In this document: piece after piece, positions 6,803-61,494 of the stretch
How positions within the stretch are numbered: position 1 is the stretch's first letter
How the letters are laid out: every line of letters begins with the position of its first letter
Assembly (NCBI GenBank): GCA_027490225.1
Contig: JAIXYK010000049.1
Coordinates: forward strand, 1-64,000
DNA length: 64,000 bases
Reading direction: 5' to 3'
From: Bacteroidota bacterium
GTDB taxonomy: Bacteria; Bacteroidota; Bacteroidia; M30B66
Program-made: the position numbers and the translations under genes
The notes under the pieces: generated by a model
Told to the model about the DNA's origin: nothing
What the model saw: the letters and a program-made list of their open reading frames with translations, nothing else
The model's database searches: none

Positions 6803-6891
6803 CTTCGAGTGCCTCAGCCACCTCAATATTCAGGCAACGGCTTAACGGTGGCTGAGGCTTCTGCGGTGGCTGAGGCACTCGAAGCCATCGT
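6803..6891. repeat. Left repeat cluster of the GIY-YIG unit
   Basis: Holds CTTCGAGTGCCTCAGCCACC (6803-6822), a partial copy in the other orientation (6847-6860, GGTGGCTGAGGCTT), and a full reverse copy (6865-6884). The 28 bases 6864-6891 are identical to 7261-7288. The full copies at 6803 and 6865 could pair as a 20-bp stem around a 42-base loop. Much of the cluster is read as the tail of the nuclease. Confidence 0.85.
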
Positions 6892-7170
6892 TACGTATCT
6901 CTTTGAAAACTCCTGTAATTTCTCCACATCCCCATTTATCAGCGCTTCTTTCTTTTTTCTACTCCAGCCCTGAATTTGCTTTTCGCGGTAATAGGCTTCA
7001 TCAATCCTATCGAATTCTTCAAAATACAACAGTTTTACTGGGAGCCTTTTCTTTGTATGGTTTGCTCCTTCGCCACATTTATGCTGAAAAATGCGCTCTT
7101 CGATGTTTCTAGTGCTGCCTGTGTAGTAGCTGCCATCTGCACAAAGTAAAATGTACATGTAACCTTTCAT
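6823..7170 (-). CDS. Small GIY-YIG family endonuclease with repeat-encoded C-terminal tail
   Basis: 115 residues. The N-terminus MYILLCADGSYYTGST is the classic GIY-YIG core of the YhbQ/UPF0213 group, followed by the helix with the conserved arginine (TRNIEERIFQH), YFEEF, and REKQIQGWSRKKKEALI. The nuclease fold ends near residue 93. The last 21 residues or so (MASSASATAEASATVKPLPEY) are low-complexity and are encoded by the repeats at 6826-6891. The family cuts DNA with one metal ion and the fold is shared by homing endonucleases and UvrC. The gene is alone, with no operon partners, and is flanked on both sides by repeat copies. Confidence 0.85.
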   Translation of the reverse strand: MKGYMYILLCADGSYYTGSTRNIEERIFQHKCGEGANHTKKRLPVKLLYFEEFDRIDEAYYREKQIQGWSRKKKEALINGDVEKLQEFSKRYVTMASSASATAEASATVKPLPEY

Positions 7171-24408: not shown

Positions 24409-24423
24409 ATTCCTCTTCTCTCT

Positions 24424-24503
24424 CTCCCCTTTCCCCTTTATACTTTGTACTTTGTACTTTATACTTTGTACTTTCTACTTTGTACTTTCTACTTTGTACT
24501 TTC
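24424..24503 (-). repeat. Heptamer array, GAAAGTA family, after the gap stop codon
   Basis: Nine consecutive 7-base units TACTTTN (N is G, A or C) run from 24441 to 24503, preceded by degenerate pyrimidine units from about 24424. On the minus strand, the sense strand of gap, the units read NAAAGTA and begin 6 bases after the gap stop. A similar array follows tadA at 56375. Confidence 0.85.
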
Positions 24504-24509
24504 TACTGT

Positions 24510-25985
24510 TTAATAGTAAGTCAACCTTATTACATTGCTCAAGTACTTCGCATATCTTATAACTTGTCTTGTGTAACCATATTCGTTGTCGTACCATACA
24601 TATAATACAATCGACTTTCCGTCTCCACTAACTAGCGTTGCAGGAGAATCAACTATAGAAGCACAAGGGTTTCCAACTAAATCGCTTGATACCAATTCTT
24701 GAGAAACTGAAAATTGAATTTGTTCTACCAATTCACCATGCAATGCTGCATTACGTAAAACACTGTTTACATCTGTTACATTTGTTTTAGTTTCTACCTG
24801 TAAATTCAAGATAGCCAACGAAACATTTGGTGTTGGTACACGCACAGAATTAGAAGTAAACAGTCCTGCCAATTCAGGAATTACTTTAGCGACTGCGCTT
24901 CCTGCACCTGTTTCTGTAATTACCATGTTCAAGGCAGCAGAACGACCACGTCTGTATTTCTTGTGGTAATTGTCAAGTAAATTTTGGTCATTCGTGTAAG
25001 AGTGTATGGTTTCAATGTGACCAGTAGTAATTCCCAAATTCTTGCTAATCACTTTAATTACAGGAACAATTGCATTGGTAGTGCATGATGCCGCAGAAAA
25101 AACATTCTCTGTTTCCCTATCAACAGCTTCTTGATTCACACCGTAAACTACATTTGGAATGTCTCCTTTTCCAGGAGCAGTAAGCAATACTTTTGAAATT
25201 CCTTTCGACTTTAAATGTTCTGAAAGACCATTTCTATCTCTTGTAACACCAGTGTTATCTATCAACAAAGCATCGAAAATCCCAAAACTCTCATAATCAA
25301 TTGTTGCAGGGTTTTCTGCAGCAATCATTTTCACCATATGACCATTAATTATCAATGCTTTATTTTCAAAATCTTCGATAATAGTTCCTGGAAAAGGACC
25401 ATGTACCGAATCTTGTCTTAACAAAGAAGCTCTTTTTGTAATATCTTCATCAGAATTACTTCTTGTAACAATTGCGCGCAACCTTAATTGCTCACCTTTA
25501 CCTGCTTGAGAAATTAATTCTCTTGCAGCAATTCTTCCAATTCTTCCAAAACCATATAAAACCACATCTTTAGGTTTTAATACCCTTTTATCTTTGCCTA
25601 AAAAGTTACCAAGTTTTTCAATTATAAACTGAGATGCTGTAGCGTATGCTGCCTTTTCATTCAACCATTCAGTAGCTAATCTTCCTAAATCTATTCGAGA
25701 AGGAGCAAATTCCATAGAAGCAATTTCTTTTGCCAATAACAAAGAATCCTGAATGTTGATTGGCTTTCCTACTACATTTCCTGCATAATTATGTAAATTA
25801 AGAATCTCACTCGCACTTCTATCTACCAACTGATTTCTAAAAATTACCAATTCTATGCTTTTATCGAACCATAACAAACCTGTAGTGTTTATTAGTTCAA
25901 TGGCTGCTTTTTCATCTTTAATCCATTCCGTAAGTTCTGCTTCGTAAGCTTTTGAAGCATCATTTGCATTATCTGAAGTTGTCAT
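24510..25985 (-). CDS. gap: Glyceraldehyde-3-phosphate dehydrogenase, long form
   Basis: 491 residues, about 150 more than the classical enzyme. The Rossmann motif GFGRIGR starts at 145, so the extra length is an N-terminal helical extension. Catalytic C301 is in SAASCTTNAIVPVIK; the substrate site HSYTNDQNLLDN and the C-terminal WYDNEYGYTRQV are intact. It catalyses the NAD(P)-dependent conversion of glyceraldehyde-3-phosphate to 1,3-bisphosphoglycerate, in glycolysis or gluconeogenesis. Long GAPDHs of this kind are common in Bacteroidota. Monocistronic. Confidence 0.93.
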   Translation of the reverse strand: MTTSDNANDASKAYEAELTEWIKDEKAAIELINTTGLLWFDKSIELVIFRNQLVDRSASEILNLHNYAGNVVGKPINIQDSLLLAKEIASMEFAPSRIDLGRLATEWLNEKAAYATASQFIIEKLGNFLGKDKRVLKPKDVVLYGFGRIGRIAARELISQAGKGEQLRLRAIVTRSNSDEDITKRASLLRQDSVHGPFPGTIIEDFENKALIINGHMVKMIAAENPATIDYESFGIFDALLIDNTGVTRDRNGLSEHLKSKGISKVLLTAPGKGDIPNVVYGVNQEAVDRETENVFSAASCTTNAIVPVIKVISKNLGITTGHIETIHSYTNDQNLLDNYHKKYRRGRSAALNMVITETGAGSAVAKVIPELAGLFTSNSVRVPTPNVSLAILNLQVETKTNVTDVNSVLRNAALHGELVEQIQFSVSQELVSSDLVGNPCASIVDSPATLVSGDGKSIVLYVWYDNEYGYTRQVIRYAKYLSNVIRLTYY

Positions 25986-55940: not shown

Positions 55941-56374
55941 TACTAGACGATAACTATTTTATGCAAGTTGCACTCAAAGAGGCGCAGAAAGCCTTGGATG
56001 CTGATGAGGTTCCAATAGGATGCGTAATTGTGTGCAATGGAACCATCATTGCGCGTGCATTCAACAGAACCGAGCAATTAAAAGACTTTACTGCACATGC
56101 CGAAATGCAGGCATTTACCAGCGCTTCAGAGTATCTAAACAATAAGTACTTAAACGAATGCACCCTTTATGTAACGCTAGAGCCTTGCGTAATGTGTTCG
56201 GGTGCAGCCTTTTGGACACAAATTGGGCGTATTGTTTTCGGCGCTAGCGACGCAAAGCGGGGTGTTTCTCAACTTTCAAAAAACATTTTTCATCCTTCTA
56301 CAGAAATTACACAAGGAGTTTTAGCAGCAGAAAGTGCAGCTTTGTTGAGTAAATTTTTTAAAGCTAAAAGGTGA
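55937..56374 (+). CDS. tadA: tRNA-specific adenosine deaminase / nucleoside deaminase
   Basis: 145 residues. Zinc ligands H54 (TAHAEMQAF, with E56) and C84/C87 (EPCVMCSGA). Most likely TadA, which makes inosine at tRNA position 34; guanine deaminase-type relatives are possible. The tRNA genes cca and miaA are in the divergent operon next door. Confidence 0.88.
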
Positions 56375-56660
56375 AAGAGGGAAGTGTAAAGTATAAAGTA
56401 GAAAGGGGAAAGTAGAAAGGGGAAAGTAGAAAGGAGAAAGGGGAAAGGAGAAAGGGGAAAGGAGAAAGGAGAAAGGAGAAAGGGGAAAGGAGAAAGGGGA
56501 AAGGAGAAAGGGGAAAGTAGAAAGGGGAAAGTAGAAAGGAGAAAGGGGAAAGGGGAAAGGAGAAAGGGGAAAGGAGAAAGGGGAAAGGGGAAAGTAGAAA
56601 GGGGAAAGTAGAAAGTAGAAAGGGGAAAGGGGAAAGGAGAAAGGTGAAAGTATAAAGTGA
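56375..56660 (+). repeat. Purine-only heptamer array, GAAAGNN, about 40 copies
   Basis: About 285 bases of 7-base units GAAAGGG, GAAAGGA and GAAAGTA in mixed order, starting at the base after the tadA stop and ending about 25 bases before the stop of the convergent acyltransferase gene. This stretch of about 309 bases holds no credible gene. The complementary strand reads as a 7-residue Leu-Ser-Pro-Phe repeat, an artefact of the period. Confidence 0.92.
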
Positions 56661-56683
56661 ACAGCTTTTTGAAAGCCTGTAAT

Positions 56684-57760
56684 TTATTGCTTCTTCATAA
56701 ATATTTGCAACAACAACTTCGATAATATTTTTTCGACTATTTGGTATGTGATGGATGACATTAGAATTATAACTAACAAACAGCTGCAAAAGTAAATCCA
56801 ACCGTTTAATGGTATGGTAAATCCAGCTTGTCTTAATACAATAGGTAAACTAAAAAGTATGATAGGATGCACTAAATAAAGAGAAAAAGAGATGTCTCCT
56901 AAAAAAACTAAGAATTTTGGAATTTTATATGGTTTTAATTTATCTCTCAAAAGGGTTGATAGAATTAACAAACCGCAATTAAATAAATGAGTGAAAAATC
57001 CGCTAAAAAAATGAAATAAATCAAAGTAATAGCCAGCAAAATTTATGAGTGAAGCAATTACAAATAAATTCGCCCAAATTATTCGATTAAAATTAATAGT
57101 AGACTTATATAACTTTCCAATTAAAAGACCAAGCACAAAAAATAAGATAACTGGATTTGTAATTAAGCTAAAATATGAAAAGTGAAAGATGTACCATTGT
57201 CTTAAATCTTGCATTACATAACCTCTTGTTAAAACTGGAATAATAATTAAAGTGATAATTATAATGCTCGAGAAAAAGTACCAGCGGTATTTTTTAAACA
57301 TAAACGAAAACGCAAGCAGTAAATAAAAATAAACTTCATAATTTAACGACCAGCCTACTTTGAGCGCCGGCATTCCGTAAGAAGGGCCAATTAAATTAGC
57401 ATAGGTTGGATAAAAGAAAATGGTAGGTAAAAGTAATTTTGGATGTTCAATTATGTATAAATGTAATTGATAAGAAACCAGTATAAAAACGAATGTAGCA
57501 AGATAATATAGTGGAAGAATGCGAACAGCTCTTTTGAATAAAAAGGTTTTTATCTTATCAAAGTTCCATTCGATTTGGTAAGTGGTTACATACATTATAA
57601 AACCACTGATGATGAAAAACAAAGGCACGCCAATGGAACCTTTTTTAAACAAGACAAAACCAAAGCTATTTTCTGGTAAAAGTCCTTTCATGTGAAAACA
57701 ACATACAAGCAAAGCTGCTAAACCGCGAAACAGCTGTATAACTTGAATTTGTGTTTTCAT
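56684..57760 (-). CDS. Acyltransferase 3 family membrane protein (OafA/YrhL type)
   Basis: 358 residues with about ten membrane helices. [19 protein letters not shown] carries the R/H motif of the family; [17 protein letters not shown] and [13 protein letters not shown] are also typical. Such proteins O-acetylate or acylate surface sugars. It ends with FMKKQ before a run of purine heptamers. Confidence 0.88.
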
Positions 57761-60174: not shown

Positions 60175-60237
60175 ACGTGTCGATTATTTTGCGTTTTTTC
60201 GACACGTAATTACTACATGTCGATTGTATCGACATGT
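60175..60237. repeat. Downstream copy of the fic-flanking double palindrome
   Basis: Two palindromes in a row: ACGTGTCGA...TCGACACGT (60175-60207, 15-base centre) and ACATGTCGAT-TGT-ATCGACATGT (60215-60237). The first is identical over 33 bases to 61408-61440; the second shares TGTCGATTGTATCGACA with 61451-61467. It lies between the fic stop and the promoter side of the T9SS gene. Confidence 0.92.
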
Positions 60238-60276
60238 CAATAAAATGCAACTGCTTGATTATTAAGTATAATTATG

Positions 60277-61368
60277 TTATTCAGACAAAACTTTCATTAA
60301 ACCAGTATTGATATAATAGACCTCTTTACCAATTTTTATTGAAGTGATTAATCCTGTATTTTCTATCTTTTTTAAGTACTCGGCGGCAGTTTGTCTTTTG
60401 GCAATTGAATTTTCTTCTAAAATGCTGGTTTTAATGTAAGGGTAACTAAACAACAAGTCGACTAACTCTTTAGAATAGGAAGATTTGAGAACTTTTTTAA
60501 TCAAAGGCTGAGTATCTTGTTTTAGTTGCAAAATGGTATTTATCTTCAATAAAGTCATTTCTGCTGTTTCGCCAATTCCTTTCAATACAAACTTTACCCA
60601 AGCTTCCCAATTGTTTTTTTCTGTTACTTCTCGTAAAAATTTATAATAATCTGATTTATGTTGAATGATATATCTACTTAAATATAAAACCGGAAGACCT
60701 AATAAATCTTTGTTTATGAGATAAAGTACATTCAAAATTCTTCCTGTTCTACCATTTCCATCACCGAAAGGATGAATTGCTTCGAACTGATAATGAATAA
60801 GCGCCATTTTAATTAAAGGGTCTAAATCGTTTAATGTATCATCATTTATGAATTTCTCTAATTGTGCTAGCTTCTCTCTGATTAGAGACTCTCCTTCTGG
60901 CGGTGTATAAACGATTGATTTAGTAAATGGATTTGCCAACTTTGTTCCTGGATTCTTTCTTATATTATCATCAGAATTTCTTAGTTTTTGCATGATTCCA
61001 ACAAGCATGTTTGTTGTAATAATGCCATTCTTGTTTATCTGCTCTAATCCCCAATACATAGCTTCTCTGTACTGAATTACTTCTTTTGCAGCAGGGTTTT
61101 TAATTTTGTCGGTTATGTTTAGTGAGGCTTTATACAGTTCATCTTGTGTGGTAACAATGTTCTCAATTGCATTAGACTCTTTACTTTCCTGAAGAATAAT
61201 GGTATTAAGAAGTAAATTAGGATTTGGAAGTGTTAGACAATAACCTTTTAGTTCTGCCAAAAGCTTGTTGGCTTTTATTGTAAGTTTAAAAATTTCGGGA
61301 GTTTCCAAATCTGCTTTTGGAGGCAAGTCTGGCAAGGAATTGTAAGGTTGATTTTTATTGAAATTCAT
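60277..61368 (-). CDS. Fic-domain protein, self-inhibited, with C-terminal winged helix
   Basis: 363 residues from the ATG at 61368, chosen over one ten codons upstream because of the N-terminal Fic sequence and the promoter box. Inhibitory motif S65-N-A-I-E69-N70 matches (S/T)xxxE(G/N). Active site H199-PFGDGNGRTGR is complete. The last 75 residues or so (LVDLLFSYPYIKTSILEENSIAKRQTAAEYLKKIENTGLITSI) look like a winged helix-turn-helix. Known Fic enzymes transfer AMP from ATP to protein hydroxyls; the target here is unknown. It is flanked on both sides by double palindromes. Confidence 0.93.
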   Translation of the reverse strand: MNFNKNQPYNSLPDLPPKADLETPEIFKLTIKANKLLAELKGYCLTLPNPNLLLNTIILQESKESNAIENIVTTQDELYKASLNITDKIKNPAAKEVIQYREAMYWGLEQINKNGIITTNMLVGIMQKLRNSDDNIRKNPGTKLANPFTKSIVYTPPEGESLIREKLAQLEKFINDDTLNDLDPLIKMALIHYQFEAIHPFGDGNGRTGRILNVLYLINKDLLGLPVLYLSRYIIQHKSDYYKFLREVTEKNNWEAWVKFVLKGIGETAEMTLLKINTILQLKQDTQPLIKKVLKSSYSKELVDLLFSYPYIKTSILEENSIAKRQTAAEYLKKIENTGLITSIKIGKEVYYINTGLMKVLSE

Positions 61369-61374
61369 GGCATG

Positions 61375-61382
61375 CGAATATA
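61375..61382 (-). promoter_or_regulatory. Probable -7 element of fic
   Basis: Minus strand reads TATATTCG, a variant of TAnnTTTG, 6 bases before the ATG at 61368. The -33 region would fall around 61403-61410, the edge of the first palindrome. Confidence 0.45.
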
Positions 61383-61406
61383 GTAATTCAATTAACACTT
61401 CGGAAT

Positions 61407-61467
61407 AACGTGTCGATTATTTTGCGTTTTTTCGACACGTTCTGATAACGTGTCGATTGTATCGACA
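61407..61467. promoter_or_regulatory. Upstream fic double palindrome, candidate operator
   Basis: AACGTGTCGA...TCGACACGTT (61407-61441, 10-bp arms) and TGTCGAT-TGT-ATCGACA (61451-61467). It is the same pair and order as the copy after fic, and overlaps the expected -33 position of the fic promoter. Operator function is inference. Confidence 0.75.
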
Positions 61468-61494
61468 TATTAAAATGATAATATTTGCTTCTAC

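Follow-up and report, generated by a model that had tools for sequence, protein, structure and literature searches.

SoFic, encoded by a single gene, is an established toxin against phages whose leakiness makes it hard to clone; the part of its description available to us names AS1, an antitoxin of 47 aa in E. coli, and says nothing of operator arrays (PMC12249575). Binding of a Fic enzyme to its own promoter has been described for CccR of Yersinia pseudotuberculosis, whose C-terminal helix-turn-helix (HTH) binds a footprinted inverted repeat there and represses the gene (PMC9755527). A third protein, CbFic2 of Coxiella burnetii, is a class II Fic with a C-terminal winged HTH (wHTH), in which DNA binding alters both oligomeric state and activity (PMC10628234). 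Here we describe a fic gene of a Bacteroidota bacterium (contig JAIXYK010000049.1, positions 1 to 64,000; henceforth the window, meaning this whole stretch of 64,000 nt) that is enclosed by two copies of a repeat built from TGTCGA half-sites. Judging from the sequence of this and homologous loci, we consider it quite likely that these repeats serve the SoFic gene between them as operator arrays: the wHTH of the encoded protein would bind them, the upstream copy would mediate repression of fic and the downstream copy would share or store bound protein.

The two repeats are 66 nt long, lie in direct orientation with a start-to-start distance of 1233 nt and are 88% identical. An earlier note, made from the window alone, had claimed that the same pair of palindromes stands in the same order on both sides of fic; sequence comparison confirmed this, with the first 33 nt of both copies identical, centre included: ACGTGTCGATTATTTTGCGTTTTTTCGACACGT. 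Read in the sense of fic, each copy consists of four TGTCGA half-sites in alternating orientation (TGTCGA-N5-TCGACA-N13-TGTCGA-N15-TCGACA), which are spaced by 11, 19 and 21 bp, i.e., at roughly 10/20/20 bp on one face of the helix. The pattern GTGTCGA-N8..20-TCGACA matched the window four times (two sites on two strands) against 0.00 matches expected from 100 dinucleotide shuffles. When the search was extended to the whole 3.77-Mb genome, as the earlier note had proposed, no further good match to the repeat was found beyond the two places flanking fic, and the full 57-bp array pattern, allowing up to 2 mismatches, was likewise confined to these places. The two linkers in the window are nearly identical, which suggests that one array copy arose recently from the other via duplication or gene conversion. 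The gene thus has an inverted-repeat candidate operator before it, and the layout of the locus is as follows.

61408..61473, minus strand: putative upstream operator array (half-sites 61462-61467, 61451-61456, 61432-61437 and 61411-61416; the nearest lies 43 bp before the ATG)
60277..61368, minus strand: fic, predicted SoFic-family protein adenylyltransferase, 363 aa (domains Fic_N, Fic and SoFic-like_C)
60175..60240, minus strand: putative downstream operator array (half-sites 60229-60234, 60218-60223, 60199-60204 and 60178-60183; it starts about 40 bp past the fic stop)

By its domains, profile and motifs, the window Fic is a SoFic-family AMPylase. Pfam detects Fic_N (1.8e-24), Fic (3.1e-15) and the wHTH-bearing SoFic-like_C (3.7e-21) within the one protein, the PADLOC SoFic model matches it with 371.5 bits (1.3e-111), and among solved structures those of E. 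coli EcSofic (9vjc) and Shewanella SoFic (3eqx and others) come closest to it. We placed the start at the ATG at 61368 rather than at the GTG at 61398 because homologues begin at that ATG. The translation matches both the FIC consensus HPFx[DE]GNGRxxR and the N-terminal inhibitory motif of class II, [ST]xxxE[GN], as defined in the Fic literature, so that the protein resembles the described SoFic defence proteins in profile, in its three domains and in these motifs.

60739..60774, minus strand: FIC catalytic motif HPFGDGNGRTGR, residues 199-210, intact (from the translation and an alignment to 9vjc)
61159..61176, minus strand: class II inhibitory-helix motif SNAIEN, residues 65-70 (from the translation; matches [ST]xxxE[GN])
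60295..60519, minus strand: C-terminal winged helix, residues 284-358 (Pfam SoFic-like_C)
60388..60396, minus strand: recognition-helix residues R325-Q326-T327 (in AKRQTAAEY), which covary with the half-site

The likeness to EcSofic extends to the recognition helix (AKRQTAS, nearly equal to that of the window Fic) and to the DNA before the gene, since E. coli SoFic also has upstream TGTCGA arrays. Arrays on both sides of the gene, by contrast, are not described in the available part of the SoFic paper (PMC12249575). CccR is a distant relative (29% identity over 45%), and its site consists of just two boxes, AGATAATCAT-N26-ATGATAATCT, and not of a phased array, with no downstream copy reported (PMC9755527). 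CbFic2 differs in that it was tested with random DNA only, has no known specific site and targets host histones (PMC10628234).

To see how far this arrangement extends, we gathered homologous fic loci across many phyla (110 in a first set and 156 later) and found that phased arrays do accompany SoFic homologues elsewhere, a check that the earlier note had suggested. TGTCGA half-sites occurred at 2.6 per kb within 300 bp of fic, compared with 0.37 per kb inside the gene and 0.38 per kb further off (first 110 loci), and an unsupervised search detected phased inverted 6-mers adjoining fic in 69 of 156 loci but in only 1 of 156 control windows inside the gene. Gaps between neighbouring half-sites were almost always 19, 21, 11 or 20 bp. 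After correction for orientation, 87% of half-site pairs no more than 60 bp apart deviated by at most 0.6 bp from a multiple of 10, the periodicity being strongest at 10.0-10.1 bp; the half-sites therefore share one face of the helix, which is what cooperative protein binding would predict. Among 72 loci of the RQ/RE type, at least two half-sites were present upstream only in 38, downstream only in 11, on both sides in 9 and on neither side in 14, and in several Bacteroidota fic loci a TAnnTTTG promoter box stood between half-sites.

Linkage was also apparent when starting from the arrays: in 19 of 27 array-bearing Bacteroidota genomes a SoFic gene lay within 1.5 kb (two of the 19 being fragments), while the other 8 had none within that distance. 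A scatter of palindromes without relation to fic, which the earlier note had named as evidence against its idea, is thus not what we see in bacteria, and holds in part for phages (see below). Arrays without a nearby fic were seen in the Bacteroidota chromosomal loci L243, L244, L245, L249, L260, L261 and L263; judged by eye, L244 and L261 adjoin BrnT/BrnA-like toxin-antitoxin genes and L243 adjoins a Cas6-like open reading frame (ORF). The E. coli SoFic promoters L381 and L384 have many phased half-sites over at least 300 bp upstream of fic, made of 70-bp modules.

The half-site changes together with the recognition helix of the protein. Of 43 loci with RQT proteins, 34 had TGTCGA, compared with 4 of the 67 other loci (p = 9e-16); the proteins of these 4 read RQA, RQA, RET and RET. 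The covariation counts rest on 94 labelled loci, in which RQ was paired with TGTCGA (49/49), RKT with TGTCCA (4/4), RNT with TGTGCA (2/2) and RIT with TGTAWA (8/8); all 14 GGGYAA labels were carried by PKT, LKT or AKT proteins, with a few exceptions in the other direction. In a tree of the Fic part alone, helix and half-site switched jointly more than once, including between sisters: L020 (RKT) stands beside L022 (RQT) and L207 (RKT) beside L043 (RQT), while L226 (RQT, TGTCGA) is nested in a TGTAWA clade. L022 reads GIAKRQTAAEYL and has a TGTCGA array, L207 reads GIAKRKTAAEYL and has a TGTCCA array, and the two arrays are of like kind. Out of sample, Cedecea, Pantoea, Rhizobium and three E. 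coli SoFic types (RQT/RQA) all had upstream TGTCGA arrays, those of E. coli spanning 170 to at least 310 bp. Because the half-site tracks the recognition helix, with switches between sister genes, the SoFic wHTH very probably binds the arrays. This idea of the earlier note thus gains strong support from covariation over many lineages, together with the precedent of CccR (PMC9755527).

Sequence directly yielded the arrays with their phasing, the linkage to SoFic, the covariation and the assignment to the family, and all of these are consistent with the following mechanism. SoFic would bind TGTCGA half-sites through the RQT residues of its C-terminal winged helix, with two or more dimers on one face of the DNA, given four half-sites at about 10/20/20 bp. 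On the upstream array, the bound protein would most likely hold down transcription of fic, such that the leaky toxin stays low. The downstream array would be a second fic-associated binding array, probably sharing or storing bound protein; in R-M (restriction-modification) operons, where it directly precedes the next gene, it may also regulate that gene. Physical binding and repression are thus predictions for the window protein, and we infer autorepression of fic because CccR, a distant Fic-HTH protein, provides an experimental precedent (PMC9755527). Some observations weigh against this account. In Ilyobacter (RKT) the half-sites are ATGGTAA and not TGTCCA, a partial exception to the covariation. 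No consensus Bacteroidota -7 box was found upstream of the window fic. Its closest relatives, L010 (82%) and L177 (84%), have a downstream array only, and therefore autorepression through an upstream operator is not universal. Finally, at least two downstream half-sites occur in 20 of the 72 RQ/RE loci, with no uniform relation to the next ORF.

Our account is weakest on what the downstream copy does, and one may ask whether this array is instead the operator of the next gene (that of a type IX secretion system (T9SS) surface protein here; hsdR, hsdS or a methylase elsewhere), with Fic acting like a controller protein of its neighbour. The controller (C) proteins of type II R-M systems are regulators that act on tandem palindromes beside the R-M genes. 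They are of another fold and family than Fic, and here the regulator itself would, by its sequence, be an AMPylating toxin, with linked R-M systems mostly of type I. Several downstream-only loci are indeed R-M operons in which the array sits between fic and the next R-M gene (hsdM-fic-array-hsdS in L020, fic-array-hsdR in L029 and L032, and res-fic-array-methylase in L010), and in 7 of the 8 downstream-only loci examined first, an ORF upstream of fic runs in the same direction at a distance of no more than 55 bp; our literature search on fic in type I R-M operons found nothing directly relevant. However, downstream arrays are also present where, by ORF-level gene calls, the next ORF converges on the array (L181, L187, L188 and L177), so that in L181, L187 and L188 the array is not the promoter operator of that ORF, and a general role as operator of whichever gene follows was rejected on these grounds. 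The array moreover goes with fic and not with the neighbour, since L010 and L177 keep it at 46-48 bp past the fic stop, before unrelated sequence. Control of the T9SS gene, which the earlier note had suggested, fares no better: in the window this gene begins about 175 bp beyond the downstream array, and its orthologues in the same-family genomes G003 and G008, located elsewhere, have no array, which led us to reject it as the regulated target. All in all, we regard an operator of the next gene as an unlikely explanation of the downstream copy.

There are two further explanations. The repeats could be the ends of a mobile single-gene unit, MITE-like (miniature inverted-repeat transposable element) or cassette-like, that carries fic between sites. 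This would fit the presence of one gene between direct repeats, the patchy distribution of fic (a homologue in 31 of 100 relatives), the order argE-array-fic-array-argH in two genomes where two relatives have argE-argH without fic, and the 8 Bacteroidota genomes with an array but no adjacent fic. It would not explain why only two copies of the repeat exist in the genome, both at fic, nor why 38 of 72 RQ/RE loci have at least two half-sites on the upstream flank only; the unit contains no recombinase, its neighbours encode a FAD-dependent (flavin adenine dinucleotide) oxidoreductase and a T9SS protein, and covariation with the Fic helix is unnecessary for repeat ends. The borders of an insertion could be placed in E. 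coli, where fic lies within the Flag-2 cluster (EC1515): the empty-site comparison there shows an insert that starts about 120 bp ahead of the array and ends about 11 bp beyond the fic stop, with no array on the right, and therefore the arrays are not the insert borders. The junctions of the argE-argH empty sites were too diverged for border placement, and the window's own locus offered no clean empty site, its neighbours being rearranged in all eight same-family genomes. An array can also be left behind without fic, as seen in E. coli VCSW7 (L386 601-755), where the operator array and the last bases of fic remain after an internal deletion. Copy number, the missing recombinase and the E. coli borders led us to reject transposon ends, and the proposal of the earlier note that the repeats mark the ends of an inserted unit is not supported; a mobile unit of any kind appears very improbable. 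The palindromes could, alternatively, act as RNA hairpins (terminators or processing sites) and not as protein-binding DNA. In a group of P22-like phages (see below) the inner half-sites change together in a compensatory manner, as a terminator stem would, and are followed by T-runs, like intrinsic terminators, and a T-run also follows the third half-site in some fic arrays. By contrast, the 10-bp phasing covers unpaired and same-direction half-sites, the half-sites track a wHTH residue, and the fic-sense strand of the window has A-runs, not T-runs, after the central stem. The array may have a hairpin role within the P22-like group, but for the arrays as a whole we would give this explanation hardly any weight.

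Other repeats in the window bear on a comparison drawn in the earlier note, which had paired the fic unit with a GIY-YIG unit as two single genes enclosed by palindromic repeats. A GIY-YIG-like ORF (115 aa; 6823-7170, minus strand) does have CGGTGGCTGAGGC...GAAGCCATCGT repeats, at 6864, 7261 and 7351, but their sequence is unrelated to the fic arrays. Imperfect 7/14-bp tandem repeats lie at 56311-56702 and 24415-24512, in mutually opposite orientation.

Arrays of the same kind are present in phages. The exact 24-base array pattern was found in 28 IMG/VR contigs, of which one encodes any Fic, and the IMG/VR controls (altered spacing, or another hexamer at the same spacing) gave 0 matches each. 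Chance was excluded by these controls, and a phage-borne fic was rejected as the cause given its presence in that 1 of 28 records only. One IMG/VR contig carries a GGGYAA-type array. At least seven of the array contigs form one P22-like group, in which the array lies between a small gene following the coat gene and a gp4-like gene; a comparison aimed at the host of these phages yielded no relative of the gp4-like protein among the annotated phages. The environmental phages of P22-like type that have the exact array are L271, L272, L281, L285, L286, L288, L291 and L297-L376.

A loose-threshold comparison of isolated phages with the E. coli SoFic operator yielded 29 matching records, nearly all from Klebsiella, Escherichia, Cronobacter and Raoultella phages. 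In the five inspected records the modules were single, combined TGTCGA with TAAACA half-sites and lay in long stretches devoid of annotated genes, and enterobacterial-type modules with TAAACA half-sites occurred in Klebsiella and Raoultella phages. Phages 4MG, Ro1, KP13-16 and VLCpiM5a (L389-L392) have single SoFic-type modules in stretches of 0.7-1.2 kb without annotated genes. Five fic-less coliphages (ECP26, ECP32, NHEP1, S127 BCL3 and B9-1) share a module with 93% identity over 73 bp to the operator of E. coli SoFic; in Escherichia phage ECP26 it lies at L388 1500-1585, and a 51-bp stretch of this phage differs at 2 positions from the operator of E. coli AVS0969. Matches to the ECP26 module, with a median of six places per genome, occur in 270 of 5426 E. 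coli genomes, a number close to the 278 E. coli genomes that carry SoFic (the two sets were compared for a few strains only). SoFic itself was present in one record of the phage collection. Going by sequence likeness, the simplest reading of the ECP26 module is an operator captured by phages.

A more tentative idea is that the arrays act as DNA antitoxins. SoFic held on an array would be inactive, arrays flanking the gene would work without a promoter role, and phage copies would be decoys that sequester the toxin or turn it off. We think this possible rather than probable. It is compatible with the 28 IMG/VR arrays (27 without Fic), the coliphage modules, the Klebsiella and Raoultella modules and the DNA-switched CbFic2 (PMC10628234). 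A search of the literature for phage operator decoys against a toxin found nothing.

What the locus appears to present is thus the operator system of a known defence family. Its architecture, which recurs across the family, is unusual, and its counterpart in phages is surprising. How SoFic toxins stay quiet is an open question according to the SoFic paper (PMC12249575), and so is the way in which phages escape from SoFic. A family-wide code from recognition helix to half-site would predict many SoFic binding sites from sequence. If the phage arrays are decoys, phages would have a new tactic of counter-defence, based on operator DNA instead of a protein, and the arrays would mark phages adapted to SoFic hosts.
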